Below, in pieces: positions 1-60,241 of a DNA stretch of 64,000 nt. Under the pieces are notes generated by a model. That model saw only the letters and a list, made by a program, of their open reading frames with translations, made no database searches and was not told the origin of the DNA. Origin of the DNA: Xiphophorus maculatus. Lineage: Eukaryota; Chordata; Actinopteri; Cyprinodontiformes; Poeciliidae. The stretch is from the NCBI RefSeq assembly GCF_002775205.1, contig NC_036450.1, forward strand, positions 24,888,288 through 24,952,287, read 5' to 3'. The number at the start of each line of letters is the position of its first letter. Within the stretch, counting starts at the first letter, position 1. A program made the translations under genes and the position numbers.

Positions 1-1185
1 AAACTCGTCCTTGGCCATCTTGTTACAAGACTTTTCCTGTAAAAGAGAATCACAAGCAGCTTCTTTCTTCAATATATAATCTAAACTGTCATCAAAAGAT
101 TTATTTTGCTCTTTTTTGTTAAGTTGAGTCTCATTATGTCTCAAAAATGTCCGGCTTGTCTCTTTCTTCTGTCTCCTCATTTCCATTTCTTCATTTTGAT
201 GCAGTCTATCTGACTGCATTATGGCAGCCATTTGTTGCCTTGCAATTTCAGCTCTGTCCTTCTTCTTCTGTTCTTTAATTTCAATTTGAGCATCCAATGT
301 GTCGGTCAGAGACTTTTTCAAATTGGCTTTCTTCTCCCTCTCTTGTTCCTCTTCAAACTTCTGGCGTAGCTGCTGCTTGGCCCGCTCTTTGCAACGCTTT
401 TCATCCAAAAGAACAAAGTTGGCAGCTTCTTTCTTCTTTATATAATCCAGATTTTCAAAAACAACCTTCTTACAATCCTCTAGACAATTCAACTTTTCAG
501 GAAGCCTCATTTCACTCAATTGTTTTGGGCAGTCTGATTCAGATTGATCCGTCTCGTCCTGTTTGAAGAATTGTCTATCTTTCTCCTTCTTGTGTCTCCT
601 CGTCTCAATCTCCTCAATTTGACACAACCTGTCTGCTTCCATTATGGCAGCCAATTGGAGACTTTCAATTTTAGCCTTTTCCTTCTCTTTCTGCTTTTTA
701 TATTTAATTTGAACATCCCATGTGTCCGTCAGAGACTGTTTCATTGCATCTTTCTTCTTCTTCTCTTGTTCCTCTTGTAACTTCTGGATTAACTGCTGCT
801 TAGCCCTCTCTGTACGACGCTTTTTCTCCAAAAGAATGTAATTGGCCGCCTCCTTCCGCTGTATTTCCTCTAGATTATCATAAACAATCTTCTTACAATC
901 CTGTTCCGTTTTACGTGACGAAGGCTTGTTAAACTGTTTGTCATTTCCAGAAACCTCGTTGTATTTAGCTGTGGACCCGTAGGGAGTTCTTTGTCTCAGC
1001 AGTCCTTCTGGCATTTTGCTTTCAGAGTCTACATCTTCTGTGTATTTAGTCCAGTTTGAAATAAAGGTGTCTAAAGATTCTTCCTGTTCTCGAAGTCGCA
1101 AAGGTCGGTTGAGTTCTTCATTTTGTTGGGTCTTCAATGTCCTCAGTAAAGGAATAATCCTCTTGGGTAATTGACGAGAATCCAT
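1..1185 (-). CDS. Ampliconic coiled-coil protein, copy A (C-terminus outside window)
   Basis: First 395 codons of the same intronless gene as copies B, C and D, cut by the window edge. The start is the ATG at 1185-1183 (MDSRQLPK...), which has A at -3 and G at +4; the longer open frame upstream lacks an ATG. The visible part is open throughout, with at least one private change (Lys instead of Arg in the DAMRQSLTD motif). It holds the N-terminal region and the first two of four charged helical repeats. It shares the A-D upstream block and lies head-to-head with copy B about 13.4 kb away. The family is not recognised by name; a ciliary or sperm structural role is inferred from the promoter and composition. 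Confidence 0.85.
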   Translation of the reverse strand, partial: MDSRQLPKRIIPLLRTLKTQQNEELNRPLRLREQEESLDTFISNWTKYTEDVDSESKMPEGLLRQRTPYGSTAKYNEVSGNDKQFNKPSSRKTEQDCKKIVYDNLEEIQRKEAANYILLEKKRRTERAKQQLIQKLQEEQEKKKKDAMKQSLTDTWDVQIKYKKQKEKEKAKIESLQLAAIMEADRLCQIEEIETRRHKKEKDRQFFKQDETDQSESDCPKQLSEMRLPEKLNCLEDCKKVVFENLDYIKKKEAANFVLLDEKRCKERAKQQLRQKFEEEQEREKKANLKKSLTDTLDAQIEIKEQKKKDRAEIARQQMAAIMQSDRLHQNEEMEMRRQKKETSRTFLRHNETQLNKKEQNKSFDDSLDYILKKEAACDSLLQEKSCNKMAKDEF

Positions 1186-1277
1186 CTTCCGTTTCTGTCT
1201 CACGATGCAAAGAGTAAAATTCACTATAAATCCACTGAAACTTTCTGCACGTCTGGTACTAGAACACAAGTAACAAA

Positions 1278-1384
1278 CTATTTAAGAGGTTTCAGAGCTG
1301 ATGTCATATGACACAAAGCATTTGATCCTAATGACATCATCAGTTAGGTAGAAGTGTCGCATTAGTTGCTATTGCTATGGTAAC
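1278..1384 (-). promoter_or_regulatory. Putative promoter of copy A: X-box, two CRE-like sites, TATA-like box
   Basis: On the minus strand, in order toward the gene: an RFX-type X-box GTTACCATAGCAAT (1384-1371), CRE-like TGATGTCA and TGACATCA octamers, and a TATA-like CTTAAATAG (1286-1278), ending about 95 bases before the ATG. The same block stands before copies B, C and D. X-boxes mark many ciliary genes and CRE-like sites many spermatid genes; use here is inferred from motif matches only. Confidence 0.55.
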
Positions 1385-2780
1385 CAGGAAAAGCTCTGAA
1401 GCGATTCCCACCTTCTAGTAAAGCAGATATTTCAAACCATTAAAACATTTCCAAATAAATTCGTTCATATTAAGACACATGAAACTTTTCCCAACCATTT
1501 AGACTAGTTTCTGCCAATGTGGCTGTAATTGATATGGGCTTAACAATGTGCAAAACACAATCACCTGGTTTCCCATTAAATCTGCTCAACAGTGTTTTCC
1601 TCATCTAAAGACGTTTTTGATGAGGAAAAGTGTTTGATGAACTCAGGTTAAACTGTGGCCGTTTCTCATTTAGACATCTTTAGCGCTTTTTTCCTTTATC
1701 TCATTTTATTTTGTATAACATATGACATCCGGTTTTTGATTTGATGTTATTTTATTTTTATTTTGCTCTATATATGTTGTAGAATGGCAGCTTAACGACA
1801 GAAAGGAACAGAAGACAAGTTACAACAGCGTGTTAAAATGTGTCTAGTTATTAGCGAACCCCTTGATAGAGGCACAAGGTATGTTTGTTTTGTAAATAAG
1901 GACGGTTCTAATTTTTAATCAGTTGAAATTGTGAATTTGTTGTATATAAACACTAGGGCATAGTTTTGAATTAGAGTTGATATTTTTAGAGTTTTAGTTG
2001 AAACGTTCTGGTTGTGTTTTTGTAGCTTACACTGTCCTTTGTGTGTGTGTGTGTGTGTGCATACAGCTATTACAGTGAAACTCAAGGTTTACTTCCAATA
2101 AACCTCACTGTTCATCAGTAAAGCCACAATCCTTCATTTGGGGCTGGGGGTGTTACACACTTTTTTATCTTTAATCCTTTTAGGCGTGTGCTGCTGTTCA
2201 TGCTTGTATATATGTGTGTGGCCCAGTGTAGACAAATGAGCCAAATACTGGAAAACATAAGTGGGATTTTATTCCCGACTGTCCTCAGATGGAACAGTAT
2301 TAATTTTGGTTTGATTTGTATGGAAGCTCATTGCTATCACACAGGAAAAAAAATATTTTGAGTGCTATCACGTTATAGCGTGATACTTATCTTAGACGTG
2401 ATACGTATCTTGTTTAAACGTAATAATTTTATGTCCAGGAAGTGGCGGTTTTATGCTAGGCTAGTACAGTGGCTAACTGTACTAGTTTTTTCTGGGTGTG
2501 TCTCCTCAGCAGGCAGGAGCAGCAAAGGAAGACAAGTGCTGCAGGTGCTGGTAAAAAGCTCCTGCAGCATGTCACTTTCAGTTAGGGGGGAATAATATGC
2601 TGAGGAGTTTTAAGTTACATTTATTCTTTGATTGATCTTAGTTAGTTCTAATGATTTGCAGGCATGTAAATATGTGTTGGTACCGTTTATTAGGTTTGTG
2701 TAAGTAGTGTTTGTTGTTTGTTCTTTTTTTTTGGATCACCCCTTTACTTGGTATAAGTGGTGAACTTGCCTCAGGTATAA
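1385..2780. other. Gene-free 5' flank shared by all four gene copies
   Basis: This flank is present in four copies (also about 12,990-14,400, 41,925-43,340 and 56,106-57,565). It includes a (GT)n run near 2,041 whose length differs between copies, a hairpin with 11-bp arms (1595-1605/1619-1629), and a hairpin with 10-bp arms CTAGTACAGT (2461-2470/2476-2485). A TATA-like CTATATATG at 1768 lies before an ATG (1838) and a consensus splice donor CAAG/GTATGT (1878/1879) on the plus strand, so a divergent transcript could begin here. A 77-codon open frame (2362-2595) exists in all copies but shows no independent sign of coding. Confidence 0.5.
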
Positions 2781-3250
2781 ATGCTTCTCGCTCTCACTGT
2801 GAAGAGTAAAGAAATTGGAAAAAGGCAACAAAAAAAAAGTTGGAATGAAAATAAGAAAGGAAAGAGATTATATGAAGTACAAAAGTCAGTATTAATTAGA
2901 AATATTAATGAGAGAAACAGAAGGGAAGAAATAATAATGATCAGATTAAGAGTAGGTCATACCTATTTAAATGACATTTTATATTTAATAGGGAGAAAAA
3001 ATAATGATAAATGTGAATGATGTGCAGAGAAAGAACATGAACACGTATTGATGAACTGTAAAACATGTGAAGCTGAAAGGGGGAAATTGAGAAGAATAGT
3101 TGGAAGGACAGGTCAATTTATATACAGATTAAGGAAAGCATTATTTATTTATCTTCAGAATAGAAACTTTAAAAATAGAATTTGATAGATGTAAAGGAAT
3201 GTTGCTACACACTCGTGTACAGTAGGTGGCGGTATGCACCTTAAAGTTGC
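2781..3250 (+). pseudogene. Non-LTR retrotransposon (LINE) ORF2 C-terminal fragment
   Basis: The translated frame carries a RLRVGHTYLNDILYLIG motif followed by a cysteine/histidine cluster (C-x2-C then H-x4-C), typical of the tail of fish LINE polyproteins. A TGA at 3018-3020 falls inside that cluster, just before the second cysteine. The frame resumes after it, so this is a dead fragment. The inverted copy in the right arm (55,650-56,106) carries the same stop, so the stop predates the arm duplication. Downstream, the sequence CAGTAGGTGGCGGTATG resembles fish LINE 3' UTR sequence. Confidence 0.65.
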
Positions 3251-3470
3251 ATGCGATCCGCCAGGATGGGCAGTGGCTTTCCTTCGGCCACTGTACCACC
3301 AAGACCTGATTGGTGGATTGCTGCAGAGATGCTTGTCCTTCTGGAAGATTCTCCTCTCCCCAAAGAGGAACCTTGGAGCTCTGCAGAGTGACCATTGGGT
3401 TGTTGGTCACATCCCTGATTAAGGCCCTTTTCTCCAGATCACTCAGTTCAGATACATATATTAATTGAAT

Positions 3471-4075
3471 CTGGAGAGACTCAGATGGAGATAAGAAGAC
3501 AATTAGAAGAGTTTATTGACAAACAGAATTTAAAGTCTTTGGCGCTCGGGCCCCGGCTGGGGATAACGGTTATCGCCGCGTTAGCGATAGGCTTCAGATG
3601 AGCATTCCCGATGCTGTTAGGAACCTCATCTCCCCAGGCCCACACTGGTGGTGGAGGTTGAAGAAGGGTCTGGGCCTCAGGACCGGGCAAATGGAGGAGA
3701 AGGGGTGGTGGTGGGTTGAGCTCGGCTGGAGAGCAAAGGACACCATGAACGAAGGTCCTTATCAGCTGGGACTTGGTCAATGATTGGACGTGACGTGGCT
3801 TGGTCCAGCGTTGATAGGTCGACGATTGTGGGCTGGTTGCTTCAATTAACGGGTCCCGGTGGGGATAAAGGAGTCTTCCAGTTTGAATTTGCGCCTAGGC
3901 TTCATTTCAATCTGGAGAGACTCAGACGGAGATAAGAAGAGAATTAGAAGAGTTTATTGACAAACAGAATTTAAAGTCTTTGGCGCCCGGGCCCCGGCTG
4001 GGGATAACGGTTATCGCAGCGTTAGTGATAGGCTTCAGATGAGCATTCCCGATGCTGTTAGGAACGTCATCCCCC
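3471..4075. repeat. 441-bp tandem repeat, about 1.4 units (left arm)
   Basis: The marker CTGGAGAGACTCAG occurs at 3471 and 3912, exactly 441 bases apart, and the sequence between them repeats with few changes. On the minus strand each unit includes an AATAAA signal (TGTCAATAAACTCTTC), suggesting derivation from the end of a transcript or an LTR. The right arm holds about 2.4 units. A partial unit also sits beside the minisatellite at 10,372-10,563 and 47,130-47,310. Open frames here are repeat products, not genes. Confidence 0.85.
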
Positions 4076-4099
4076 AAAAAGAGGCCGAGGCCGTGAATA

Positions 4100-5060
4100 T
4101 AAGGCAGAAAGTAAAAAGGGGAAAGAAGTTGCGCTGACTTTGGCTACCAAGTTAATAACGTAAAGGAAGTGACATGACAGCTAAAGGAGAGGGAGAGTAG
4201 GACGGGAAAGTGAAGACCAGCTGAGAATGCTGCCGGCCAAGAGGTGGTAGAATACACAAAACACAGGGCATGGGGACGTGGTGTGAGAGCCGGCTGGGGA
4301 TACGGCAGGACGAGGGAGGAAGGGATGTTGGAAGGTGACGGCCGGCTGAGGACACAATGGGGCATAGAGTAGCAGAACGCAGGGCATAGGGATGCTGGAG
4401 GATAAGCTGGCTGGAAATGCTGCGGGGCTAGTGGAATGGACGTGGGCGGGCGATAACCGGCTGAGGACACGGCAGGGCATGATGATAGAAAAGCCGGCGG
4501 GGAATGCTTAGGGCGAGAATGAAGGGATACAAGCGGGGCTTAGAAGAGGGGATGCTGGTTTGAAAAACGCCAGCATTAACTAATGTAGGGTATAGGATAG
4601 AGGGAGCAGGGCATAAGATAAAGGGACGCGTTGAATAGAGGAGATGGAGCGGGGAATAGGATACGGGGCAGCTGGCTAGAAAAAGAAGCCAGCTGGTAGC
4701 GGCAGGGCTTAGGAGGTAACGATGACATGGAAGAGACCAGCAGGGGAAGGAACAAGACAAGGGATGAGGGGCAGCTGGTTAGAAAAAGAAGCAAGCTGGA
4801 AACCCAGCAGGGCATTGAAGGAGAGAGGCAGATGGCTGAAGGATGGCTAGGAATGGTTCGAGGCATAGGGAGATGTGACACTGGGAGAAGAGTGATTGCT
4901 ATGGGTGAGCGGGGACACAGCGGGGCATGGGCTGCTGGTAGAAAAAGGCCTGCGGGGGTCACAGCAGGGCAAGGGAAGGTGGAATGCTGATAGGTGAAGG
5001 CCAGCAGAGGTGATATAATGATACTATGGAGTGACATTACTGATAGAGAATGAAATGCCC
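4100..5060. repeat. GC-rich degenerate tandem repeat (left arm)
   Basis: Imperfect repetition of a GCCGGCTGRGGAYACRGCAGG-like core, spaced by about 50-70 bases, drifting toward CAGCTGG/AAGCCAGC variants. Overlapping open frames on the minus strand, rich in Pro, Ser and Leu, follow the repeat and have no coding character. Mirrored at 53,440-54,300. Confidence 0.65.
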
Positions 5061-7067
5061 CAAAAAGGAGCTGAGGCCAGGGCCGAAGCTCAGAATTAGA
5101 GGCAGGAGGAGCTAGGCTAACTAGGGGCTTACAGGCTGTGTCTCGAGGAGTAATTAGAAGATAATTGCAGAGATAGAGGTGAGAGATGAGAAGCTGGTAG
5201 ATGAAGGTGAACAGAGGTAGAGTGGATGCTATGGAAAGATATGTTAGCTGGTGGAAGGAAGCTAGCTGGGAGATATTGAGATAGCAAAAAGAGGATGGGA
5301 GAATGAATAGACTAGAGTGAGAAAATAACTTCCTGCTACTGGAGATGGGATACTGATGCTAGGATCAGACTCACAGGGTGACGTTAGAGGAAACGGGCGA
5401 AAGACAAGATCATTCTAGAATGAACCTGAAAATAAAGATGTGAAGGACGATGAGGGGAAGGACATGCATCACGTTTGCTGCATAAGAGTGTGCACTTTTG
5501 CCTGAGGTTGACCAACCACCACCAGTGGATCGTGCAGTGCTCGTCTGGCACTGAGGGAAGCTGCGAACACGGAGGAGAGATACTCATTACGTGAAAAGAA
5601 TGCTGAAGATGAACTGGGGATTTTTATATATATATAAAGAATGGACTTTGAAATACTATTGTTAGTTTGCAAATCGCTGAACGACTTGGTACCACGAAAC
5701 AATGAAGATCTGCTGTAAAGCATCAACCTCCCAAGCTCATGAGGTCTTTCCGTTTGAGCCTGCTCTACGACCCCGGGACCAGACCAGAAAGAGAAGCAGC
5801 ATTCAGCATCTAAACCCCGCGAATTGGATCAACTCCCAGGAGACCTTAAAACAGCTGAAACGCGACTTTGATCAATCTCGACTAAAACCCGCCTGTTTAG
5901 AATGTATTAGAAACATGCTCAATCACAAAGTTAATGATGGAACTTGACTTGATATCATGTTTTGTTTGTTGCTTCCCTATGCATGACCTTGGTTCTTGAG
6001 CTATTATGATATAAAAGCATTTGCGCTGAAAATACCTTGCTGCCAAAAACAGCTTTGTTGAGTTAGATCTTTAAATACTACAGCCGCCACGAGCATCCGG
6101 TAAGGGATGAGAGGAGAGATTTCTGGTTCAAAATTTATTAAATAGAGCTGAGTGGTCTACGAGAAATACAGAAAAAGAGACAAATGAAAGCTATTATTTT
6201 CACTCGCTATGAAGTAATTTTTTTTTTTTTTTTTTTGTACCAGCAGATGGCAGCAAGAGACGACAAATAAACCGCAACGACGTTATCATGATGATAACTC
6301 TTTAGATTGTCATATCTGTATTTCAGTTGCACGGATATACGAATCCTGCTTGAATGCGGAGAAAACTTACTTTTATTCGTTGACCCGCTCTCTTGAACAA
6401 ACAGCTCTGAACGGCCTCTAACGATTACTTCGTAACGCTGAACGTGAGCTCTTACGACAACGGCTGATGCAGCTTGAGAGTACAAGGAACCAAACCAATC
6501 AAGGTAAACGTGAATCGGACGGTTTCCTGAGCTCTTAATGCGCAGTTATGTTAATCCATTTACGACATGCTATACAATAAGAATTTGATTGATTGATTTG
6601 GCTGGCTAGTTGAAAAGTGCCGTGCAACTACTTGACTTGGACCCAGGCGATGATGAGGGGGTTTGGTTCCTTTATATAAAGCCATGGCTTCAGAGCGGCT
6701 TGTTAACGAATCCGTAAGGGAAACCGTAAGGTGCTTTATGATAATTAGTTCAGAAGCGAGACGGAACGAACGCGTCCGAGCCTGGAACTTGAGTAAGCTA
6801 GAGAACAGGTTGCATAAACCAGGAAGTGGCAGAATAATCTGAGAAATAATGGTATGCAGATTTCAGACGAGTTTCGGATGAGAGATGAAACGTAAAAGCG
6901 CTGGATGGGACATGGCTTGAAATATGAGAAAATGGGACAGCTGCTTATTAGCGAAGAACGGCCCTGACTCCGGATGAAAATTAACGGGTAGGGCGAAATG
7001 AATCTATGAGGCTGAACATGTACCACGACATCGGTAGCCTGCAGGCCACTTGTTAACAAGCGTAAGG
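5061..7067. other. Left-arm spacer, no supported gene
   Basis: Mixed sequence, mirrored at about 51,129-53,440. Short open frames (5702-5947 plus; 6207-6485 minus; 6745-7059 minus) are conserved between arms only to the degree the whole arm is, and match no family I recognise. A poly-T run lies at about 6219-6236. Confidence 0.5.
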
Positions 7068-7105
7068 TAATATTAGAGTCGACTCTTAGCTATCTGTATT
7101 ACTAG
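7068..7105 (+). repeat. Outer fragment of the 27-bp minisatellite
   Basis: Just over one unit (GTCGACTCTTAGCTATCTG...TTACTAG) directly left of the piggyBac element, in the same orientation as the long array at 9140-9945. It ends in CTAG at 7102-7105, the left flank of the piggyBac insertion. Confidence 0.8.
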
Positions 7106-9139
7106 CCCTCTGATGCATGAATTATGAATCCCTGAGTCAAGATTTTTTTAAATGTGTTTTTACTCTTCTTATGGCATGAAAAAACAAATATTAACTTTTT
7201 TTTTCAAAAATGTTATTTTTCCAGGAAGTTACAGAAATGTCCACTACAGTGGACTACATGCGCTTCAGCACTCAACATAGAACAATATGAACTTAACTGA
7301 AGAATAATTTCATCTGAGTTTGATCATAAATCCATGACCTCATATTCCATTGTGGGCTTTGAAAAGCACTTGAACATGCTTTCATACACTCTAACATTCT
7401 ATAGCCCTTCTGTTAATCCAAACCAAGAGAACAATCTTCATCAAACAACTCCTCTTCTAACTTCTCTCCTAACTCATTTTCCTAACTCCTAGGCTACATG
7501 AAAATTGGCAAAGCATCCAAGGCACAGTGCCACATGGCACTGCATGCAGATGCATTTGGTCTTCCTTGTGCATGCAGCATCGTGGCATCTGTTTGCATTT
7601 TTGACTTGAGTGAGCTCGGGCCAGTGATTTCCTGCGCTGAACCTGACCTCCCTGGGTACTTTGGTCACTGCTCTGCACTTTGCTGGAGGTGGGGCTCCAT
7701 TGGGTCTTCCTTTTCTTTTTTGCTGACCAGAGCCAAAATTGATCAGTGCACGGGCCACAGAAGCTTTGAAGATAAGGAGATTCATCTTTTCCAACCCAGA
7801 CATCAGGTAGAGTCGCCAGGCATTTACAACAGTCACATCCAAAACATGAAAGAACACTCTGATGTACCACCACTTGTTTCTACGTCTGTGGGGATACATT
7901 GCCACACACTGGTCAACGAGATCCACCCCACCCATGTGTTGGTTATAAAGGGCCACCGAGTAGAGTCTTTGGACACTGATCTTGGCTTGGCTTGACCAGT
8001 ACATCCGTGTCCTAGGATACCGAATGTACCCCATGACCATGTTGATCCCTAGAAAAATTTGCATTTCTTTGTTTGTCACTGCCAGATTTTCTTTCCCTTT
8101 CTGCAGCACATACATGTTGGTGTTATGCACTATCACATCAGTGAGATCTAAGGGAAACAAATACCTAAAGAAATCAATTGGTTCTCTTCCATCAACATTT
8201 ACTCTCCTTTCTCCTAGAAAAGGTGGTAAGTCTCCATCAAAGTTATTGTCTTGGACTTTCCAGACATATTTGCGGGGTTGAGTGCAGGTATGGCCCTTGT
8301 GAACATTTCTCACAGCAGGTACCATGTGGACATTTTCCTCAGCTCCCTCATCTTGCTGACCTCCATCTGCATCCTGTCCTTCATCATCCTGGCCCTCATC
8401 ATCTTGACTTTCAGCATCCTGACTGTCTGCATCTCCTTCATCATCCGTATCTCCAATATTTCTAGTGTTTTCTGGCAGCCATTCCTCATCACTGCTGTCA
8501 CTATACTCGTCATCAGAGGAGTCAGAGGGAATTTCCTCGAATATTCTATAGTGTTCCTTATTTGCTGCACTTGTGGTCTAAAATTATGAGAAAATTATAA
8601 TTTTACTAACACAAACTACAAATGATCTGAATAAAAAAATATCTTTTTAAAACTAACATAGATATACTCAAAATGAATTTAATTGCAAGCAAAACAGTTA
8701 TAATGAAAGATAAATCAACTACATGACTTATATTAAAAATATAGTCAGCAATGCATGATGTCCACTGTGTTGGACACATGGTTAATTGCAATTTCCTACT
8801 TACATGAAATAAAATTTTCCAAACTAAGTTAATAATATTGTTACCTAGATGCTCCTGCATGTCAGCATATTTTTTTACCTCTAGGATTCTCCGAGAATAG
8901 AAGGATTGAGAGGATATTCCAGGAGTGGTCATTGACTGTGTCTGTCTGCCGGCCATATTGGACTCCGATGACATTAACTTGTAGTTACAACAACTTGCCA
9001 CTGAATTAACCTCAGTGGAGGGGAGCAGTAGAGAGCATTCTAAGGACTGATATGCAATACCACCGTAGAAGCCATTGCATTTAGGAGACAATGACTTCTA
9101 AACAGCTGTCCACTGTAGTGACCGCTATGCACCAGAGGG
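7106..9139 (-). mobile_element. piggyBac-type DNA transposon, internally deleted, left-arm copy
   Basis: The element is bounded by inverted termini CCCTCTGATGCAT (7106 onward) and the complement of CCCTCTGGTGCAT (ending 9139). Both flanks are CTAG (7102-7105, 9140-9143). Joining the flanks recreates an uninterrupted minisatellite unit, so the element landed inside the array. It encodes a two-exon piggyBac-family protein on the minus strand. The termini begin CCC as in piggyBac, but the target is CTAG rather than the usual TTAA. Length 2,034 bp. Confidence 0.85.
7489..8956 (-). CDS. PiggyBac transposase-derived protein, central catalytic region missing (two exons)
   Basis: Exon 1 is 8956-8879 (26 codons, starting MAGRQTQS) with donor GAG/GTAAAA. 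Exon 2 is 8577-7489 after acceptor TTTTAG, in phase 0, giving about 388 residues. Order: an acidic Asp/Ser/Glu-rich N-terminal region, a piggyBac-like segment (RYLFPLDLTD...), the conserved SVALYNQHMGGVDLVDQ motif, and a C-terminal Cys/His domain (C-x4-C-x4-C-x-C-x2-C...C-x2-C). Full piggyBac transposases are about 550-600 residues. The part carrying the first two catalytic aspartates is absent, the junction lying between SSQAKISV and QRLYSVAL. Catalysis is therefore not expected; DNA-end binding through the Cys-rich domain remains possible. The right-arm copy is nearly identical. Confidence 0.82.
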
Positions 9140-9945
9140 CTAGAGTCACCTTTTAGCTATCTGTATTACTAGAGTCGACTTTTAGCTATCTGTATAACTA
9201 GAGTCGACTTTTAGCTATCTGTATTACTAGTCGACTTTTAGCTATCTGTATTACTAGTCGACTTTTAGCTATCTGTATAACTAGAGTCGACTTTTAGCCA
9301 TCTGTATTACTAGAGTCGACTTTTAGCTATCTGTATTACTAGTCGACTTTTAGCTATCTGTATTACTAGTCGACTTTTAGCTATCTGTATAACTAGAGTC
9401 GACTTTTAGCTATCTGTATTACTAGAGTCGACTTTTAGCTATCTGTATTACTAGTCGACTTTTAGCTATCTGTATTACTAGACTCGACTTTTAGCTATCT
9501 GTATTACTAGAGTCGACTTTTAGCTATCTGTATTACTAGACTCGACTTTTAGCTATCTGTATAACTAGAGTCGACTTTTAGCTATCTGTATTACTAGTCG
9601 ACTTTTAGCTATCTGTATTACTAGAGTCGACTTTTAGCCATCTGTATTACTAGTCGACTTTTAGCTATCTGTATTACTAGAGTCGACTTTTAGCTATCTG
9701 TATTACTAGAGTTGACTTTTAGCTATCTGTATTACTAGTCGACTTTTAGCTATCTGTATTACTAGTCGACTTTTAGCTATCTGTATTACTAGAGTTGACT
9801 TTTAGCTATCTGTATTACTAGTCGACTTTTAGCTATCTGTATTACTAGTCGACTTTTAGCTATCTGTATTACTAGTCGACTTTTAGCTATCTGTATTACT
9901 AGTCGACTTTTAGCTATCTGTATTATGAGAGTCACCTTTTAGCTA
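9140..9945 (+). repeat. 27-bp minisatellite array (left arm)
   Basis: About 30 units of GTCGACTTTTAGCTATCTG-TATTACTA with an optional two-base GA/AG. Most units contain a SalI site (GTCGAC) and end near CTAG. Variants (AGTTGAC, AGCCATC, GTATAAC) are scattered. It abuts the right end of the piggyBac element and starts with a GTCACC variant that also closes the array. The mirrored array at 47,755-48,738 is longer. Confidence 0.95.
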
Positions 9946-10563: not shown

Positions 10564-10626
10564 ATGTAACTTAATATATATATAAGGTGTGAGGCCTTTT
10601 AATTAAATTTTTATGTCATCATTATC

Positions 10627-10705
<79 letters not shown>

Positions 10706-10790
10706 CTTAATTGTCATAATTAAAAGGCCTCACACTTTTAATGATGACATTAAAAGTGTCATAATATTGACATATATAACATATATATAT
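10564..10790. repeat. AT-rich inverted-repeat element with (TA)n core
   Basis: Begins TAACTTAATATATA, followed by AAGGTGTGAGGCCTTTTAAT and its inverted partner on the far side of a (TA)n run at about 10,632-10,703. The same modules occur at 17,505-17,960, 38,686-38,832, 45,868-46,650 and 47,026-47,125. It looks like a MITE or a mosaic of several; no protein is encoded. Open frames of alternating Ile/Tyr are microsatellite artefacts. Confidence 0.75.
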
Positions 10791-10799
10791 AAAAAAAAA

Positions 10800-48921: not shown

Positions 48922-50389
48922 ATGGCCGGCAGACAGACACAGTCAATGACCACTCCTGGAATATCCTCTCAATCCTTCTATTCTCGGAGAATCCTAGAGG
49001 TAAAAAAATATGCTGACATGCAGGAGCATCTAGGTAACAATATTATTAACTTAGTTTGGAAAATTTTATTTCATGTAAGTAGGAAATTGCAATTAACCAT
49101 GTGTCCAACACAGTGGACATCATGCATTGCTGACTATATTTTTAATATGAGTCATGTAGTTGATTTATCTTTCATTATAACTGTTTTGCTTGCAATTAAA
49201 TTCATTTTGAGTATATCTATGTTAGTTTTAAAAAGATAATTTTTTATTCAGATCATTTGTAGTTTCTGTTAGTAAAATTATAATTTTCTCATAATTTTAG
49301 ACCACAAGTGCAGCAAATAAGGAACACTATAGAATAGTCGAGGAAATTCCCTCTGACTCCTCTGATGACGAGTATAGTGACAGCAGTGATGAGGAATGGC
49401 TGCCAGAAAACACTAGAAATATTGGAGATACGGATGATGAAGGAGATGCAGACAGTCAGGATGCTGAAAGTCAAGATGATGAGGGCCAGGATGATGAAGG
49501 ACAGGATGCAGATGGAGGTCAGCAAGTTGAGGGAGCTGAGGAAAATGTCCACATGGTACCTGCTGTGAGAAATGTTCACAAGGGCCATACCTGCACTCAA
49601 CCCCGCAAATATGTCTGGAAAGTCCAAGACAATAACTTTGATGGAGACTTACCACCTTTTCTAGGAGAAAGGAGAGTAAATGTTGATGGAAGAGAACCAA
49701 TTGATTTCTTTAGGTATTTGTTTCCCTTAGATCTCACTGATGTGATAGTGCATAACACCAACATGTATGTGCTGCAGAAAGGGAAAGAAAATCTGGCAGT
49801 GACAAACAAAGAAATGCAAATTTTTCTAGGGATCAACATGGTCATGGGGTACATTCGGTATCCTAGGACACGGATGTACTGGTCAAGCCAAGCCAAGATC
49901 AGTGTCCAAAGACTCTACTCGGTGGCCCTTTATAACCAACACATGGGTGGGGTGGATCTCGTTGACCAGTGTGTGGCAATGTATCCCCACAGACGTAGAA
50001 ACAAGTGGTGGTACATCAGAGTGTTCTTTCATTTTTTGGATGTGACTGTTGTAAATGCCTGGCGACTCTACCTGATGTCTGGGTTGGAAAAGATGAATCT
50101 CCTTATCTTCAAAGCTTCTGTGGCCCGTGCACTGATCAATTTTGGCTCTGGTCAGCAAAAAAGAAAAGGAAGACCCAATGGAGCCCCACCTCCAGCAAAG
50201 TGCAGAGCAGTGACCAAAGTACCCAGGGAGGTCAGGTTCAGCGCAGGAAATCACTGGCCCGAGCTCACTCAAGTCAAAAATGCAAACAGATGCCACGATG
50301 CTGCATGCACAAGGAAGACCAAATGCATCTGCATGCAGTGCCATGTGGCACTGTGCCTTGGATGCTTTGCCAATTTTCATGTAGCCTAG
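48922..50389 (+). CDS. PiggyBac transposase-derived protein, right-arm copy (two exons)
   Basis: Exon 1 48,922-48,999, exon 2 49,301-50,389, phase 0, about 388 residues. Same internal loss of the first two catalytic aspartates as the left copy. Differences are few (Val for Phe in the RI(F/V)EEIP segment; Phe for Val in RVFFH). Conserved in both arms: MGGVDLVDQ and the Cys-rich C-terminus. The gene lies entirely inside the transposon. Confidence 0.82.
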
Positions 50390-50710
50390 GAGTTAGGAAA
50401 ATGAGTTAGGAGAGAAGTTAGAAGAGGAGTTGTTTGATGAAGATTGTTCTCTTGGTTTGGATTAACAGAAGGGCTATAGAATGTTAGAGTGTATGAAAGC
50501 ATGTTCAAGTGCTTTTCAAAGCCCACAATGGAATATGAGGTCGTGGATTTATGATCAAACTCAGATGAAATTATTCTTCAGTTAAGTTCATATTGTTCTA
50601 TGTTGAGTGCTGAAGCGCATGTAGTCCACTGTAGTGGACATTTCTGTAACTTCCTGGAAAAATAACATTTTTGAAAAAAAAAGTTAATATTTGTTTTTTC
50701 ATGCCCTAAG

Positions 50711-50936
50711 ACAGGGGTGTCAAACTCCAGTCCTCGAGGGCCGCTGTCCTGCAGTTTTTAGATGTGCCACAGGTACGAAATGCTGGAAGGAAATGGCTTA
50801 ATTACCTCCTCCTTGTGTAGATCAGTTCTCCACAGCCTTGCTAATGACCTAATTATTCTATTCAGGTGTGGTGCAGCAGAGGCACATCTAAAAGTTGCAG
50901 GACAGCGGCCCTTGAGGACTGGAGTTTGACACATGT
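50711..50936. mobile_element. hAT-type MITE nested in the right piggyBac copy
   Basis: ACAGGGGTGTCAAACTCCAG with inverted right end GAGTTTGACACATGT, flanked by an 8-bp duplication GCCCTAAG (50,703-50,710; 50,937-50,944), the hAT signature. The left-arm piggyBac has the empty site near 7,170. Confidence 0.9.
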
Positions 50937-51128
50937 GCCCTAAGAAGAGTAAAAACACATTTAAAAAAAATCTTGACTCAGGGATTCATAATTCATGCAT
51001 CAGAGGGCTAGTAATACAGATAGCTAAAAGGTGACTCTCATAATACAGATAGCTAAAAGTCGACTCTAGTAATACAGACAACTAAGAGTTGACTCTAGTA
51101 ATACAGATAGCTAAGAGTTGACTCTAAT

Positions 51129-53440
51129 ATTACCTTACGCTTGTTAACAAGTGGCCTGCAGGCTACCGATGTCGTGGTACATGTTCAGCCTCATAGATTC
51201 ATTTCGCCCTACCCGTTAATTTTCATCCGGAGTCAGGGCCGTTCTTCGCTAATAAGCAGCTGTCCCATTTTCTCATATTTCAAGCCATGTCCCATCCAGC
51301 GCTTTTACGTTTCATCTCTCATCCGAAACTCGTCTGAAATCTGCATACCATTATTTCTCAGATTATTCTGCCACTTCCTGGTTTATGCAACCTGTTCTCT
51401 AGCTTACTCAAGTTCCAGGCTCGGACGCGTTCGTTCCGTCTCGCTTCTGAACTAATCATCATAAAGCACCTTACGGTTTCCCTTACGGATTCGTTAACAA
51501 GCCGCTCTGAAGCCATGGCTTTATATAAAAGAACCAAACCCCCTCATCATCGCCTGGGTCCAAGTCAAGTAGTTGCACGGCACTTTTCAACTAGCCAGCC
51601 AAATCAATCAATCAAATTCTTATTGTATAGCATGTCGTAAATGGATTAACATAACTGCGCTTTAAGAGCTCAGGAAACCGTCCGATTCACGTTTACCTTG
51701 ATTGGTTTGGTTCCTTGTACTCTCAAGCTGCATCAGCCGTTGTCGTAAGAGCTCACGTTCAGCGTTACGAAGTAATCGTTAGAGGCCGTTCAGAGCTGTT
51801 TGTTCAAGAGAGCGGGTCAACGAATAAAAGTAAGTTTTCTCCGCATTCAAGCAGGATTCGTATATCCGTGCAACTGAAATACAGATATGACAATCTAAAG
51901 AGTTATCATCATGATAACGTCGTTGCGGTTTATTTGTCGTCTCTTGCTGCCATCTGCTGGTACAAAAAAAAAAAAAATTACTTCATAGCGAGTGAAAATA
52001 ATAGCTTTCATTTGTCTCTTTTTCTGTATTTCTCGTAGACCACTCTCAGCTCTATTTAATAAATTTTGAACCAGAAATCTCTCCTCTCATCCCTTACCGG
52101 ATGCTCGTGGCGGCTGTAGTATTTAAAGATCCAACTCAACAAAGCTGTTTTTGGCAGCAAGGTATTTTCAGCGCAAGTGCTTTTATATCATAATAGCTCA
52201 AGAACCAAGGTCATGCATAGGGAAGCAACAAACAAAACATGATATCAAGTCAAGTTCCATCATTAACTTTGTGATTGAGCATGTTTCTAATACATTCTAA
52301 ACAGGCGGGTTTTAGTCGAGATTGATCAAAGTCGCGTTTCAGCTGTTTTAAGGTCTCCTGGGAGTTGATCCAATTCGCGGGGTTTAGATGCTGAATGCTG
52401 CTTCTCTTTCTGGTCTGGTCCCGGGGTCGTAGAGCAGGCTCAAACGGAAAGACCTCATGAGCTTGGGAGGTTGATGCTTTACAGCAGATCTTCATTGTTT
52501 CGTGGTACCAAGTCGTTCAGCGATTTGCAAACTAACAATAGTATTTCAAAGTCCATTCTTTGAGCAACAGGGAGCCAGTGTCGGGGATCTTAAAACTGGC
52601 GTTTTGTGCTCCATCTTCCTGGTTTTAGTGAGAACGTGATCAGTAGCATTTTTGATCAGCTGCAGCATTCGATTGATTTGTTGGAAAGACCCGCAAAGTC
52701 GCGTTGCAGTAACCAATGCAACTGAAGATAAACACACGGATGATGTTCTAGATCTGGCGAGTCATTGTTCTTTAATCCAATAAGTGCGAAAGTTTTACAT
52801 AATTTATATATAGGTATATATATAAAAATCCCCAGTTCATCTTCAGCATTCTTTTCACGTAATGAGTATCTCTCCTCCGTGTTCGCAGCTTCCCTCAGTG
52901 CCAGACGAGCACTGCACGATCCACTGGTGGTGGTTAGTCAACCTCAGGCAAAAGTGCACACTCTTATGCAGCCAATGTGATGCATGTCCTTCCCCTCATC
53001 GTCCTTCACACCTTTATTTTCAGGTTCATTCTAGAATGATCTTGTCTTTCGCCCGTTTCCTCTAACGTCACCCTGTGAGTCTGATCCTAGCATCAGTATC
53101 CCATCTCCAGTAGCAGGAAGTTATTTTCTCACTCTAGTCTATTCATTCTCCCATCCTCTTTTTGCTATCTCAATATCTCCCAGCTAGCTTCCTTCCACCA
53201 GCTAACATATCTTTCCATAGCATCCACTCTACCTCTGTTCACCTTCATCTACCAGCTTCTCATCTCTCACCTCTATCTCTGCAATTATCTTCTAATTACT
53301 CCTCGAGACACAGCCTGTAAGCCCCTAGTTAGCCTAGCTCCTCCTGCCTCTAATTCTGAGCTTCGGCCCTGGCCTCAGCTCCTTTTTGGGGCATTTCATT
53401 CTCTATCAGTAATATCACTCCATAGTATCATTATATCACC
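51129..53440. other. Right-arm spacer, no supported gene
   Basis: Mirror of 5,061-7,067 with an extra segment of about 240 bases at 52,561-52,805 (repeat-like, GTTGCAGTAACCAATGCAAC) absent from the left arm. Short open frames are unsupported. Confidence 0.5.
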
Positions 53441-54300
53441 TCTGCTGGCCTTCACCTATCAGCATTCCACCTTCCCTTGCCCTGCTGTGTCCCCCGCCGG
53501 CCTTTTTCTACCAGCAGCCCATGCCCCGCTGTGTCCCCGCTCACCCATAGCAATCACTCTTCTCCCAGTGTCACATCTCCCTATGCCTCGAACCATTCCT
53601 AGCCATCCTTCAGCCATCTGCCTCTCTCCTTCAATGCCCTGCTGGGTTTCCAGCTTGCTTCTTTTTCTAACCAGCTGCCCCTCATCCCTTGTCCTGTTCC
53701 TTCCCCTGCTGTTCTCTTCCATGTCATCGTTACCTCCTAAGCCCTGCCGCTACCAGCTGGCTTCTTTTTCTAGCCAGCTGCCCCGTATCCTATTCCCCGC
53801 TCCATCTCCTCTATTCAACGCGTCCCTTTATCTTATGCCCTGCTCCCTCTATCCTATACCCTGCATTAGTTAATGCTGGCGTTTTTCAAACCAGCATCCC
53901 CTCTTCTAAGCCCCGCTTGTATCCCTTCATTCTCGCCCTAAGCATTCCCCGCCGGCTTTTCTATCATCATGCCCTGCCGTGTCCTCAGCCGGCTATCGCC
54001 CGCCCACGTCCATTCCACTAGCCCGCAGCATTTCCAGCCAGCTTATCCTCCAGCATCCCTATGCCCTGCGTTCTGCTACTCTATGCCCCATTGTGTCCTC
54101 AGCCGGCCGTCACCTTCCAACATCCCTTCCTCCCTCGTCCTGCCGTATCCCCAGCCGGCTCTCACACCACGTCCCCATGCCCTGTGTTTTGTGTATTCTA
54201 CCACCTCTTGGCCGGCAGCATTCTCAGCTGGTCTTCACTTTCCCGTCCTACTCTCCCTCTCCTTTAGCTGTCATGTCACTTCCTTTACGTTATTAACTTG
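53440..54300. repeat. GC-rich degenerate tandem repeat (right arm)
   Basis: Mirror of the repeat at 4,100-5,060; CAGCCGGC/CAGCTGGCTT cores at irregular spacing. Confidence 0.65.
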
Positions 54301-54359
54301 GTAGCCAAAGTCAGCGCAACTTCTTTCCCCTTTTTACTTTCTGCCTTATATTCACGGCC

Positions 54360-55430
54360 TCGGCCTCTTTTTGGGGGATGACGTTCCTAACAGCATCGGG
54401 AATGCTCATCTGAAGCCTATCACTAACACTGCGATAACCGTTATCCCAAGCCGGGGCCCGGGCGCCAAAGACTAAATTCTGTTTGTCAATAAACTCTTCT
54501 AATTCTCTTCTTATCTCCGTCTGAGTCTCTCCAGATTGAAATGAAGCCTAGGCGCAAATTCAAACTGGAAGACTCTTTTATCCCCACCGGGACCCGTTAA
54601 TTGAAGCGACCAGCCCACAATCGTCGACCTATCAACGCTGGACCAAGCCACGTCACGTCCAATCATTGACCAAGTCCCAGCTGATAAGGACCTTCATTCA
54701 TGGTGTCCTTCGCTCTCCAGCCGAGCTCAACCCACCACCACCCCTTCTCCTCCATTTGCCCGGTCCTGAGGCCCAGACCCTTCTTCAACCTCCACCACCA
54801 GTGTGGGCCTGGGGGGATGAGGTTCCTAACAGCATCGGGAATGCTCATCTGAAGCCTATCGCTAACGCGGCGATAACCGTTATCCCAAGCCGGGGCCCGG
54901 GCGCCAAAGACTTTAAATTCTGTTTGTCAATAAACTCTTCTAATTCTCTTCTTATCTCCGTCTGAGTCTCTCCAGATTGAAATGAAGCCTAGGCGCAAAT
55001 TCAAACTGGAAGACTCTTTTATCCCCACCGGGACCCGTTAATTGAAGCGACCAGCCCACAATCGTCGACCTATCAACGCTGGACCAAGCCACGTCACGTC
55101 CAATCATTGACCAAGTCCCAGCTGATAAGGACCTTCGTTCATGGTGTCCTTTGCTCTCCAGCCGAGCTCAACCCACCACCACCCCTTCTCCTCCATTTGC
55201 CCGGTCCTGAGGCCCAGACCGTTCTTCAACCTCCACCACCAGTGTGGGCCCGGGGGGATGACGTTCCTAACAGCATCGGGAATGCTCATCTGAAGCCTAT
55301 CGCTAACTCGGCGATAACCGTTATCCCCAGCCGGGGCCTGAGTGCCAAAGACGTTAAATTCTGTTTGTCAATAAACTCTTCTAATTGTCTTCTTATCTCC
55401 ATCTGAGTCTCTCCAGATTGAATTAATATA
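54360..55430. repeat. 441-bp tandem repeat, about 2.4 units (right arm)
   Basis: GAGTCTCTCCAG ends at 54,534, 54,975 and 55,416, exactly 441 bases apart. Each unit has AATAAACTCTTC on the plus strand. One unit more than the left arm. Confidence 0.92.
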
Positions 55431-55649
55431 TGTATCTGAACTGAGTGATCTGGAGAAAAGGGCCTTAATCAGGGATGTGACCAACAACCCAATGGTCACT
55501 CTGCAGAGCTCCAAGGTTCCTCTTTGGGGAGAGGAGAATCTTCCAGAAGGACAAGCATCTCTGCAGCAATCCACCAATCAGGTCTTGGTGGTACAGTGGC
55601 CGAAGGAAAGCCACTGCCCATCCTGGCGGATCGCATGCAACTTTAAGGT

Positions 55650-56106
55650 GCATACCGCCACCTACTGTACACGAGTGTGTAGCAACATTCCTTTACATCT
55701 ATCAAATTCTGTTTTTAAATTTTCTATTCTGAAGATAAATAAATAATGCTTTCCTTAATCTGTAAATAAATTGACCTGTCCTTCCAACTATTCTTCTCAA
55801 TTTCCCCCTTTCAGCTTCACATGTTTTACAGTTCATCAATACGTGTTCATGTTCTTTCTCTGCACATCATTCACATTTATCATTATTTTTTCTCCCTATT
55901 AAATATAAAATGTCATTTAAATAGGTATGACCTACTCTTAATCTGATCATTATTATTTCTTCCCTTCTGTTTTTCTCATTAATATTTCTAATTAATACTG
56001 ACTTTTGTACTTCATATAATCTCTTTCCTTTCTTATTTTCATTCCACCTTTTTTTTTTGTGCCATTTTCCAATTTCTTTACTCTTCACAGTGAGAGCGAG
56101 AAACAT
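55650..56106 (-). pseudogene. LINE ORF2 C-terminal fragment (right arm)
   Basis: Mirror of 2,781-3,250 with the same internal TGA and a few substitutions. Confidence 0.65.
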
Positions 56107-56827
56107 TTATACCTGAGGCAAGTTCACCACTTATACCAAGTAAAGGGGTGATCCAAAAAAAAAGAACAAACAACAAACACTACTTACACAAACCTAATAA
56201 ACGGTACCAACACATATTTACATGCCTGCAAATCATTAGAACTAACTAAGATCAATCAAAGAATAAATGTAACTTAAAACTCCTCAGCATATTATTCCCC
56301 CCTAACTGAAAGTGACATGCTGCAGGAGCTTTTTACCAGCACCTGCAGCACTTGTCTTCCTTTGCTGCTCCTGCCTGCTGAGGAGACACACCCAGAAAAA
56401 ACTAGTACAGTTAGCCACTGTACTAGCCTAGCATAAAACCGCCACTTCCTGGACATACAATTATTACGTTTAAACAAGATACGTATCACGTCTAAGATAA
56501 GTATCACGCTATAACGTGATAGCACTCAAAATATTTTTTTTCCTGTGTGATAGCAATGAGCTTCCATACAAATCAAACCAAAATTAATACTGTTCCATCT
56601 GAGGACAGTCGGGAATAAAATCCCACTTATGTTTTCCAGTATTTGGCTCATTTGTCTACACTGGGCCACACACATATAATACAAGCATGAACAGCAGCAC
56701 ACGCCTAATAGGATTAAAGATAAAAAAGTGTGTAACAACCCCAGCCCCAAATGAAGGATTGTGGCTTTACTGATGAACAGTGAGGTTTATTGGAAGTAAA
56801 CCTTGAGTTTCACTGTAATAGCTGTAT

Positions 56828-56902
<75 letters not shown>
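56828..56902. repeat. (CA)n microsatellite in the copy D 5' flank
   Basis: About 37 CA units; the matching run is about 9 units near 2,041, about 10 near 13,717 and about 14 near 42,592. Confidence 0.95.
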
Positions 56903-56904
<2 letters not shown>

Positions 56905-57565
56905 GGACAGTGTAAGCTACAAAAACACACTCTTACAACCAGAACGTTTCAACTAAAACTCTAAAAATATCAACTCTAATTCAAAACTATGCCCTAGTGT
57001 TTATATACAACAAATTCACAATTTCAATTGATTAAAAATTAGAACCGTCCTTATTTACAAAACAAACATACCTTGTGCCTCTATCAAGGGGTTCGCTAAT
57101 AACTAGACACATTTTAACACGCTGTTGTAACTTGTCTTCTGTTCCTTTCTGTCGTTAAGCTGCCATTCTACAACATATATAGAGCAAAATAAAAATAAAA
57201 TAACATCAAATCAAAAACCGGATGTCATATGTTATACAAAATAAAATGAGATAAAGGAGAAAAGCACTAAAGATGTCTAAATGAGAAACGGCCACAGTTT
57301 AACCTGAGTTCATCAAACACTTTTCCTCATCAAAAACGTCTTTAGATGAGGAAAACACTGTTGAGCAGATTTAATGGGAAACCAGGTGATTGTGTTTTGC
57401 ACATTGTTAAGCCCATATCAATTACAGCCACATTGGCAGAAACTAGTCTAAATGGTTGGGAAAAGTTTCATGTGTCTTAATATGAACGAATTTATTTGGA
57501 AATGTTTTAATGGTTTGAAATATCTGATTTACTAGAAGGTGGGAATCGCTTCAGAGCTTTTCCTG

Positions 57566-57672
57566 GTTACCATAGCAATAGCAACTAATGCGACACTTCT
57601 ACCTAACTGATGATGTCATTAGGATCAAATGCTTTGTGTCATATGACATCAGCTCTGAAACCTCTTAAATAG
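57566..57672 (+). promoter_or_regulatory. Putative promoter of copy D
   Basis: X-box GTTACCATAGCAAT at 57,566-57,579, the two CRE-like octamers, and CTTAAATAG at 57,664-57,672, about 92 bases before the ATG. Confidence 0.58.
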
Positions 57673-57764
57673 TTTGTTACTTGTGTTCTAGTACCAGACG
57701 TGCAGAAAGTTTCAGTGGATTTATAGTGAATTTTACTCTTTGCATCGTGAGACAGAAACGGAAG

Positions 57765-59843
57765 ATGGATTCTCGTCAATTACCCAAGAGGATTATTCCT
57801 TTACTGAGGACATTGAAGACCCAACAAAATGAAGAACTCAACCGACCTTTGCGACTTCGAGAACAGGAAGAATCTTTAGACACCTTTATTTCAAACTGGA
57901 CTAAATACACAGAAGATGTAGACTCTGAAAGCAAAATGCCAGAAGGACTGCTGAGACAAAGAACTCCCTACGCGTCCACAGCTAAATACAACGAGGTTTC
58001 TGGAAATGACAAACAGTTTAACAAGCCTTCGTCACGTAAAACGGAACAGGATTGTAAGAAGATTGTTTATGATAATCTAGAGGAAATACAGCGGAAGGAG
58101 GCGGCCAATTACATTCTTTTGGAGAAAAAGCGTCGTACAGAGAGGGCTAAGCAGCAGTTAATCCAGAAGTTACAAGAGGAACAAGAGAAGAAGAAGAAAG
58201 ATGCAATGAGACAGTCTCTGACGGACACATGGGATGTTCAAATTAAATATAAAAAGCAGAAAGAGAAGGAAAAGGCTAAAATTGAAAGTCTCCAATTGGC
58301 TGCCATAATGGAAGCAGACAGGTTGTGTCAAATTGAGGAGATTGAGACGAGGAGACACAAGAAGGAGAAAGATAGACAATTCTTCAAACAGGACGAGACG
58401 GATCAATCTGAATCAGACTGTCCAAAACAATTGAGTGAAATGAGGCTTCCTGAAAAGTTGAATTGTCTAGAGGATTGTAAGAAGGTTGTTTTTGAAAATC
58501 TGGATTATATAAAGAAGAAAGAAGCTGCCAACTTTGTTCTTTTGGATGAAAAGCGTTGCAAAGAGCGGGCCAAGCAGCAGCTACGCCAGAAGTTTGAAGA
58601 GGAACAAGAGAGGGAGAAGAAAGCCAATTTGAAAAAGTCTCTGACCGACACATTGGATGCTCAAATTGAAATTAAAGAACAGAAGAAGAAGGACAGAGCT
58701 GAAATTGCAAGGCAACAAATGGCTGCCATAATGCAGTCAGATAGACTGCATCAAAATGAAGAAATGGAAATGAGGAGACAGAAGAAAGAGACAAGCCGGA
58801 CATTTTTGAGACATAATGAGACTCAACTTAACAAAAAAGAGCAAAATAAATCTTTTGATGACAGTTTAGATTATATATTGAAGAAAGAAGCTGCTTGTGA
58901 TTCTCTTTTACAGGAAAAGTCTTGTAACAAGATGGCCAAGGACGAGTTTGCCAAAATGTCACATGAAGTACAGCAGCAGCAGAAAACTACAAAGCAACAA
59001 CCTCTGGCTGATGAATTGGCTGCCAGACAGCAATACAAACAGTCAAAGAAGATTGAAACGGACAGGACTGAAAGGGAAGGAGTTCTTCCTGGATATCGAG
59101 CTGAGGAAATTGGAGCCAGGAGACAGAAGAAGGAGGTTCAGCAGAACCTGAAGACACAGAACAACGTCAGTGAACAAGGAAGAGATGTTCATTATGAATC
59201 AGTTGTTCTAGATAATGATAGTGACTGTGACATTGATGATAAGGACAGAAGTCGTGAAATACGTAAAAAAATCGTGTACGACCAACTGTCCCTTATAAAG
59301 AAAAAAGAAGATATGAAAAGGACTTTTATGGAGGATAAGATATCGAAAGAAACGAAACATCGGGAAGCTGCAGAGCAAAAGCATAAAAAACTGGCGAAAG
59401 AGAAAAAAGCTGCAGCTACCAAGTGTCTGACTGACTCATGGGATTACCAGATACGTCGTAAACAGCAGGAGAAGAAGGAACTGCGTGAGGCTGAGAGGAA
59501 AGACATGCTGTCCTTAATTGAGTTGGAGAGAGTGTGTGGAGGCGAAAGTATTAAAAGAATCCAAATTGAGAAACGCAAACAGCCTGTTTATGACGACGTT
59601 AAGGAGACTCTGCCAGCAGCAAGACCAGGGAGAAGTTGCTCCAAGTCCCGTGAGGGAAGAACGACGTTTTCTGACAAACATGTTGACGGAAAAACCAGCA
59701 AGGCTTGCAGACCTTCACTGGGTTGTCAGAAAGTTACCGATACCAAGCATGTCAGATTTCCCTCACTGAACTCCAAATCTGTGCACTTCTCTGAGAATTG
59801 CCAACAGACTTCTAAAAATGTAAAACTCCCATCCATTTCATAG
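57765..59843 (+). CDS. Ampliconic intronless coiled-coil protein, copy D
   Basis: 692 residues, complete. Its visible private change is Ala for Gly in the TPYGSTAKY motif near residue 70. It otherwise follows C at the sites where B differs. Repeat layout and basic C-terminus are as in copy B. The 3' flank matches B until 60,241, where an ERV LTR interrupts it. No introns, so it may descend from a reverse-transcribed ancestor, although the promoter block travels with it and no poly-A tract or target duplication is seen at its ends. Confidence 0.88.
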   Translation: MDSRQLPKRIIPLLRTLKTQQNEELNRPLRLREQEESLDTFISNWTKYTEDVDSESKMPEGLLRQRTPYASTAKYNEVSGNDKQFNKPSSRKTEQDCKKIVYDNLEEIQRKEAANYILLEKKRRTERAKQQLIQKLQEEQEKKKKDAMRQSLTDTWDVQIKYKKQKEKEKAKIESLQLAAIMEADRLCQIEEIETRRHKKEKDRQFFKQDETDQSESDCPKQLSEMRLPEKLNCLEDCKKVVFENLDYIKKKEAANFVLLDEKRCKERAKQQLRQKFEEEQEREKKANLKKSLTDTLDAQIEIKEQKKKDRAEIARQQMAAIMQSDRLHQNEEMEMRRQKKETSRTFLRHNETQLNKKEQNKSFDDSLDYILKKEAACDSLLQEKSCNKMAKDEFAKMSHEVQQQQKTTKQQPLADELAARQQYKQSKKIETDRTEREGVLPGYRAEEIGARRQKKEVQQNLKTQNNVSEQGRDVHYESVVLDNDSDCDIDDKDRSREIRKKIVYDQLSLIKKKEDMKRTFMEDKISKETKHREAAEQKHKKLAKEKKAAATKCLTDSWDYQIRRKQQEKKELREAERKDMLSLIELERVCGGESIKRIQIEKRKQPVYDDVKETLPAARPGRSCSKSREGRTTFSDKHVDGKTSKACRPSLGCQKVTDTKHVRFPSLNSKSVHFSENCQQTSKNVKLPSIS

Positions 59844-60241
59844 TCAAATGAAGAACTGTTTCTCAGCTGGACAAGGAATGAGATGGGATGTGAAAACAGC
59901 AGCTTTCACTTCTCGTTTACATAACATCTTTGTAAGATTGTCTGTTAGCTACGTCAGACATATGAGGCCTTAGCTTTGAAGGTAGCACAAATCATTTTAA
60001 CAAAAGGTTTTCTCTGGGTGCTCCAGTTTTCCAAAAAAACGAGAGAGAGAGACTACTTCAAATATACGTTTTCTCTTGGTGCTCCAGTTTCTCTAAAAAC
60101 ACAAGTGACAGACAGACATTGTAATTTGCTCTCTTAGGAAAATCAACTAATCTTGTTGAAACACAAGTTTTCTCCGGGTGCTCCGGTTTCTCTACAAACA
60201 CAAATGACAGTCAGACAGACAGACAGACACACATTGTCTCT

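Follow-up and report, generated by a model that had tools for sequence, protein, structure and literature searches.

The 64-kb stretch of contig C8 of Xiphophorus maculatus examined here (C8:24888288-24952287, referred to below as the window, from an assembly of 704,300,149 bases in all) contains nested inverted copies of a gene that consists of one open frame. The question raised by this locus is how the copies arose: by two ordered rounds of inversion in the manner of a sex-chromosome palindrome, as a sequence-only reading had proposed, or by a less regular process. We consider it most probable (roughly 0.75) that a gene restricted to the Poeciliidae was multiplied on C8 by local direct and inverted duplication with exchange between copies, and that its family also spread as composite cargo of hAT-like elements.

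Local amplification on C8

Comparison of the window with itself (self-BLAST) recovers the general layout proposed earlier, i.e., two arms inverted around a spacer of about 21 kb with an inverted gene pair inside each. The inner arm block 12392-17591 matches 43943-38745 in inverted orientation at 99.3% identity over 5.2 kb, while the outer blocks (1-10,660 and 58,949-47,024) fall into six main inverted pieces of 97.0-99.3% identity with insertions and deletions (indels) between them. The nested pair formed by the surroundings of copies A (1-2949) and B (15786-12825) is inverted and 99.1% identical, and the C/D pair is alike. This similarity is far above chance. The arms are thus inverted copies with respect to their identity, but not continuous ones: they are mosaics of common blocks, broken by indels. 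The count of four genes likewise holds for the window only, since the cluster totals seven and its structure runs past both window edges.

A protein search of the whole genome placed seven full-length 724-codon frames of 98-100% identity on C8 (24,870,450-24,983,670), in the orientation order - - + - + + +. Copies B, C, and D each form a 724-codon open frame within the window, copy A is whole only in its genome context, and one further copy lies to the left (copy 1) and two to the right (copies 6 and 7). According to a self-comparison of 200 kb, the cluster extends over about 122 kb (approximately 24.869-24.992 Mb), and its common units vary in length by deletions and insertions. Copy 7 borders sialidase frames. 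Several sialidase-3/4-like frames adjoin the cluster (L019-L020, C8:24.99-25.01 Mb), and several such proteins also occur in other poeciliids. Directly to the left of copy A, a further Ty3-like element contributes frames for an integrase and a SCAN domain (L014 2482-5524).

Aligned with its flanks, the gene offers 3842 unmasked columns across the seven copies, 54 of them variable and 23 informative. Almost half of the informative-site pairs (123 of 253) fail the four-gamete test, and 56 of 120 still do so once CpG sites are removed; these patterns indicate that the C8 copies exchange sequence with one another. As incompatible site patterns are a mark of exchange, the basis for dating the small inverted pair before the large one is lost. 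Substitution distances in the alignable parts are 0.88% between A and D, 0.84% between A and 6, 0.89% between A and 7, and 1.24% between A and 1; those among B, C, and D are 0.39% (B-C), 0.42% (B-D), and 0.40% (C-D).

The earlier proposal that a small inverted pair came first and that the whole unit was then duplicated in inverted form is favored by the synteny of the arms and by a piggyBac-like stretch of approximately 2.4-2.8 kb, which both the A and the D unit carry but the corresponding place in copies 1, 6, and 7 does not. The stretch is one structural argument for pairing A with D, although not a decisive one: like repeats of 28-29 bp flank it in the same direction, and copy 1 shows these repeats joined with the stretch between them missing, so the stretch may just as well have been lost by copies 1, 6, and 7 as gained by A and D. 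Moreover, the copies number seven instead of four, the spacer is itself partly duplicated, and none of the 23 informative sites unites A and D to the exclusion of the other copies (for B and C, two do so). Within A-D only, three informative sites support AD|BC, one AB|CD, and two AC|BD. Copy A is nearly equidistant from D, 6, and 7, and copy B from C and D. The two-step order is not supported by these comparisons and is unlikely. An assembly or haplotype artefact, in which alleles or misjoined reads were laid out as copies, is highly improbable. Near-identical repeats are known to be prone to misassembly; however, the 200 kb around the cluster contain no N, the copies differ in sequence, indels, and neighbors, their number exceeds two haplotypes, and the family is spread over several contigs. 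Under the favored explanation of local duplication with exchange, segmental duplication, both direct and inverted, would have acted repeatedly to amplify the C8 copies next to the sialidase array, and exchange between copies would keep them about 99% alike. Local segmental duplication probably gave rise to the clusters on C3, C4, and C23 as well.

Dispersed copies, two of them between hAT-like elements

A second, dispersed subfamily is represented by copies on C5, C14, C4, C15, and C23, whose main blocks are 95-99% identical. On C5, the gene lies within a composite of 9986 bases (C5:19321013-19330998) that has a hAT-like element at both outer ends and CAACATAG on each side. The composite on C14 (C14:1082059-1088581, 6523 bases) shows the same inner junctions, with CTGCTAAA and CTGTTAAA as its flanks. 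The outer target duplications therefore agree in 8 of 8 bases on C5 and in 7 of 8 on C14; random pairs of 8-mers drawn from these regions match completely in 3.5e-5 of draws and in at least seven positions in 6.3e-4. No match between the two loci was found outside the blocks in 20 kb of each, so one site was not simply copied to the other by segmental duplication.

The element ends read CAGAGGTG...CACCTCTG. The upstream junction between element and gene is whole in at least three places, on C14, C5, and C4, with 40 of 167 candidates scored. Besides these three, three more of the 40 scored places lie inside the C5 and C14 composites, and 34 are elsewhere. In the C4 copy, the upstream element is complete (1.35 kb) and has ATTATTAT on both sides. 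On C5 and C14, hAT-like elements would thus have come to stand on either side of the gene, their outermost ends would have been used jointly, and the whole block would have been inserted with an 8-bp target duplication. A transposase was presumably at work at the outer ends of these composites.

Several observations weigh against this explanation. The C14 duplication has one mismatch, the C4:26.08 copy has no right-hand hAT-like element, and the C15 and C23:30.01 copies are without such ends. Composite ends occur in two of the nine known copies of the dispersed subfamily, flanks having been read for five of the nine; the other four (C4:31.40 and C23:29.70, 29.73, and 29.755 Mb) yielded no upstream junction among the scored candidates. 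The elements are presumably hAT, judging by their ends and by the 8-bp duplication characteristic of that group. Finally, neither the left-type end (19-mer, up to 4 mismatches) nor the right-type end (27-mer, up to 7 mismatches) was found in the 200 kb surrounding the cluster on C8. Gene copies within the window were therefore multiplied by duplication, and not demonstrably by carriage.

The surroundings of other dispersed copies were considered as well. The C15 copy (L026 with L043 and L044) is framed by inverted 1.73-kb repeats that are 99.1% identical and have CAGTGGTTCTC ends; we take them to be Charlie-like. The outer 8-mers differ (TTCTAGAA and ATCCATGA), so that these repeats do not demonstrate a composite insertion. 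Directly before the C23 gene copy is a GIY-YIG frame of 689 aa beside CCCTAA-like repeats (L027 249-2480), perhaps, we assume, from a Penelope-type element. An origin from a PI4K intron was also dismissed. A stretch in the dispersed copies shows about 90% similarity to DNA that adjoins a PI4K_N exon to the left of the C8 region, but among 40 scored of 2684 candidates these 683 bp recur, whole or in part, at 27 or more further locations and, as a common repeat, are uninformative on origin.

Gene product, family, and selection

The gene encodes 692 amino acids from the initial Met, rich in lysine (14.7%), glutamate (11.6%), and glutamine (8.8%), and includes four repeats in tandem, each about 125 residues long. 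AlphaFold2 predicts long helices (including 90-209, 228-354, 364-437, and 492-594) at low confidence, with a mean predicted local distance difference test score (pLDDT) of 62 and a predicted template modeling score (pTM) of 0.21. The product is probably a long, rod-like helical protein. This low-confidence model found no fold match with Foldseek, and searches of the PDB gave no credible relative, the single match being an aldehyde dehydrogenase (E 0.17); a relation to axonemal or TPH-type proteins was set aside on both counts. Pfam gave no match for the gene product and weak, inconsistent matches for single other members, in searches where HMMER filters may hide coiled coils.

In protein database searches, which scored only the 8000 candidates with most words in common, at least four relatives were found with the single sequence and at least five with a profile, all from Poecilia and Gambusia (28-56% identity). 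The gene thus appears to be restricted to Poeciliidae, its relatives being found only there among the scored candidates. Predicted proteins of these genera named "Trichohyalin-like" or "calponin homology domain-containing protein DDB_G0272472-like" are themselves homologs. Their names are those of the source annotation; neither a trichohyalin/TPH nor a calponin-homology Pfam domain was found in the present product, with the same reservation about HMMER filters. Among the papers listed in literature searches, none deals with the gene or the C8 cluster.

The genome-wide protein search gave 78 matches in all. Open frames of at least 600 codons comprise 26 copies on seven contigs (seven on C8, eight on C4, five on C3, three on C23, and one each on C5, C14, and C15). 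They were counted by hand from reported frame lengths, giant frames of 2731 and 2068 codons excluded; the former (L036) is a run of N, as its translation ended in X. One of the 26 (C3:29.658-29.660 Mb, 705 codons) matched in pieces, one of them with a stop. Several broken copies are present on C12, C3, and C4. On C3, three 767-codon copies lie at 28.54, 28.56, and 28.74 Mb, one opposite in orientation and about 200 kb off, and may include an inverted pair.

In a joint alignment (without L036 and the broken L028), the ratio of nonsynonymous to synonymous divergence (dN/dS) between subfamilies is 0.44-0.75. Pairwise values for the whole protein are 0.44-0.69, below 1 in all six subfamily pairs (Fisher p 3.6e-11 to 4.8e-3). 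Mid-protein values are inflated because some copies lost a repeat, so that unlike repeats were aligned; the C-terminal part is free of this problem. There, the evidence runs partly the other way: dN/dS is 0.45-0.87 with p <0.01 in only three of six pairs, and copy B against the C5 copy gives 0.87 (p 0.61). In the joint alignment, some near-identical copies show ratios above 1, on few changes. Changes within the C8 cluster are too few to judge. Together, the open frames and the dN/dS pattern suggest that weak selection maintains the frame of a rapidly changing protein.

The 5' flank behaves differently from the coding part. Over the 1.3 kb upstream of its start, copy B agrees with the C5 copy at 93.9% of 1228 bases and with the C3 copy at 94.5% of 766 bases, whereas coding identity is lower (80% and 88%, respectively). 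The synonymous divergence (dS) of the C-terminal part, 0.18-0.20, is about three times that of the flank. The flank has only short frames, none of which exceeds 79 codons before the frame of the gene itself, and its similarity could be due to constraint or conversion. That the gene serves the germ line is a guess, with the odds somewhat against it, and expression in testis is a prediction only; multiplication of this kind is frequent among germ-line genes. The fuller picture of a semi-mobile, young, lineage-restricted gene, spread by local inverted duplication and hAT carriage with frame and 5' flank kept, and germ-line or selfish in a drive-like manner, is tentative at best.

Two further explanations concern the nature of the gene itself. 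Neutral amplification of decaying, functionless copies would fit the fast protein change, the broken copies, the three of six C-terminal pairs that are not clearly different from neutrality, and the lack of any Xiphophorus entry of the family among the scored database candidates, though X. maculatus proteins are present there. It is improbable, since 26 copies are open over at least 600 codons and whole-protein dN/dS is below 1 in every subfamily pair. Alternatively, the open frame could be a gene of a transposable element, such as an accessory protein, its copies being merely copies of the element. Its single frame, its occurrence on several chromosomes at 95-99% identity, and the associated hAT-like ends on C5, C14, and C4 speak for this possibility; however, the product has no match to a transposase, integrase, or reverse transcriptase, the C8 and C15 copies are without these ends, and at the 40 scored places the hAT-like element occurs mostly without the gene. 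This explanation is about as improbable as neutral decay.

Window features and related systems

The features of the window are listed in Table 1. The Ty3/gypsy element in the spacer carries a chromodomain, and its long terminal repeats (LTRs) differ at only 1 of 735 positions, which points to a probably very recent insertion. The 28-29 bp tandem repeats around the piggyBac-like frame are alike and run in the same direction; beside the tabulated arrays they occur at 51008-51133, so that the right arm displays them on both sides of the frame. Repeats of 441 bp at 43503-43943 and an array at 54373-55422 were rejected as related, as they do not match one another, and their equal length was taken as chance. 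Rfam gave no match within the window at gathering thresholds.

Table 1. Position of genes, arms, and mobile elements in the window (CDS, coding sequence)
Feature	Position	Strand	Remarks
Left arm	1..17591		Inverted relative to right arm; homology extends ~2.3 kb left beyond window; self-comparison of window and 200 kb
Right arm	38745..60241		Self-comparison
Spacer, ~21 kb	17592..38744		In part repeated elsewhere within cluster
Copy A	1..1185	-	Truncated by window edge; whole CDS C8:24887397-24889472
Copy B	14602..16677	+	CDS of 692 codons; open frame 14506-16680
Copy C	39649..41724	-	CDS of 692 codons; open frame 39646-41820
Copy D	57765..59840	+	CDS of 692 codons; open frame 57669-59843
5' flank of copy B, non-coding	13328..14601	+	~94% identity to C5 and C3 copies
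Duplicated spacer part	17891..23790	+	99.75% copy of C8:24984641-24990539, DNA adjoining gene copy 7
Sialidase (BNR_2) frame	21404..22393	-	Sialidase frames continue right of cluster
Ty3/gypsy element in spacer	28063..34189	+	LTRs 28063-28797 and 33455-34189, 99.86% identical
piggyBac-like (DDE_Tnp_1_7) stretch, left arm	7167..9946	-	Frame 7489-8577; 28-29 bp tandem repeats 9140-9946
piggyBac-like stretch, right arm	47932..50711	+	Frame 49301-50389; tandem repeats 47760-48738

Ampliconic palindromes of mammalian Y chromosomes combine inverted, near-identical arms with a multicopy gene and exchange between copies. The likeness to such palindromes noted in the sequence-only reading holds for the C8 cluster, which has near-identical inverted arms that carry the gene and stem from recent inverted duplications, many copies, a fast-changing protein, and exchange between copies; in contrast to the mammalian palindromes, the array mixes direct and inverted units, its arms are broken by indels, and it is probably autosomal. 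Composite transposons, in which two elements move the DNA between them, are mainly bacterial. The C5 and C14 loci resemble them in that the gene lies between two like elements with a target duplication at the outer ends; here, however, the elements are hAT-like, the host is a fish, and the composites are putative mobile units recognized by their ends and duplications.

A preprint gives chromosome 21 as the sex chromosome of X. maculatus (PMC13277934). The cluster is on contig C8, and none of the 78 gene matches is on C21, although contig numbers may not equal chromosome numbers. A location on the sex chromosome is therefore unlikely. In the same species, texim is a multicopy SGNH hydrolase gene associated with a Helitron (PMC4021074). 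Both are multicopy genes tied to a DNA transposon. Texim is interrupted by introns, encodes an SGNH hydrolase domain, and forms a Y-linked cluster (PMC4021074). Unlike texim, the present gene encodes a helical-repeat protein in a single frame, has no known sex linkage, and at two loci lies in a composite with hAT-like ends. Carriage by a Helitron, as texim might suggest, was rejected, since no Helitron domain was found in nine flanking frames (two of them from dispersed loci) and the ends are hAT-like.

The gene is unannotated, and its family of 26 open frames is without a Xiphophorus entry among the scored protein database candidates, although X. maculatus is an established laboratory fish. 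At the C5 and C14 loci, target-site duplications would record how composite DNA transposons spread a new coding gene in a vertebrate. Alongside this dispersal, members of the family also form a local, ampliconic cluster that is probably off the sex chromosome.

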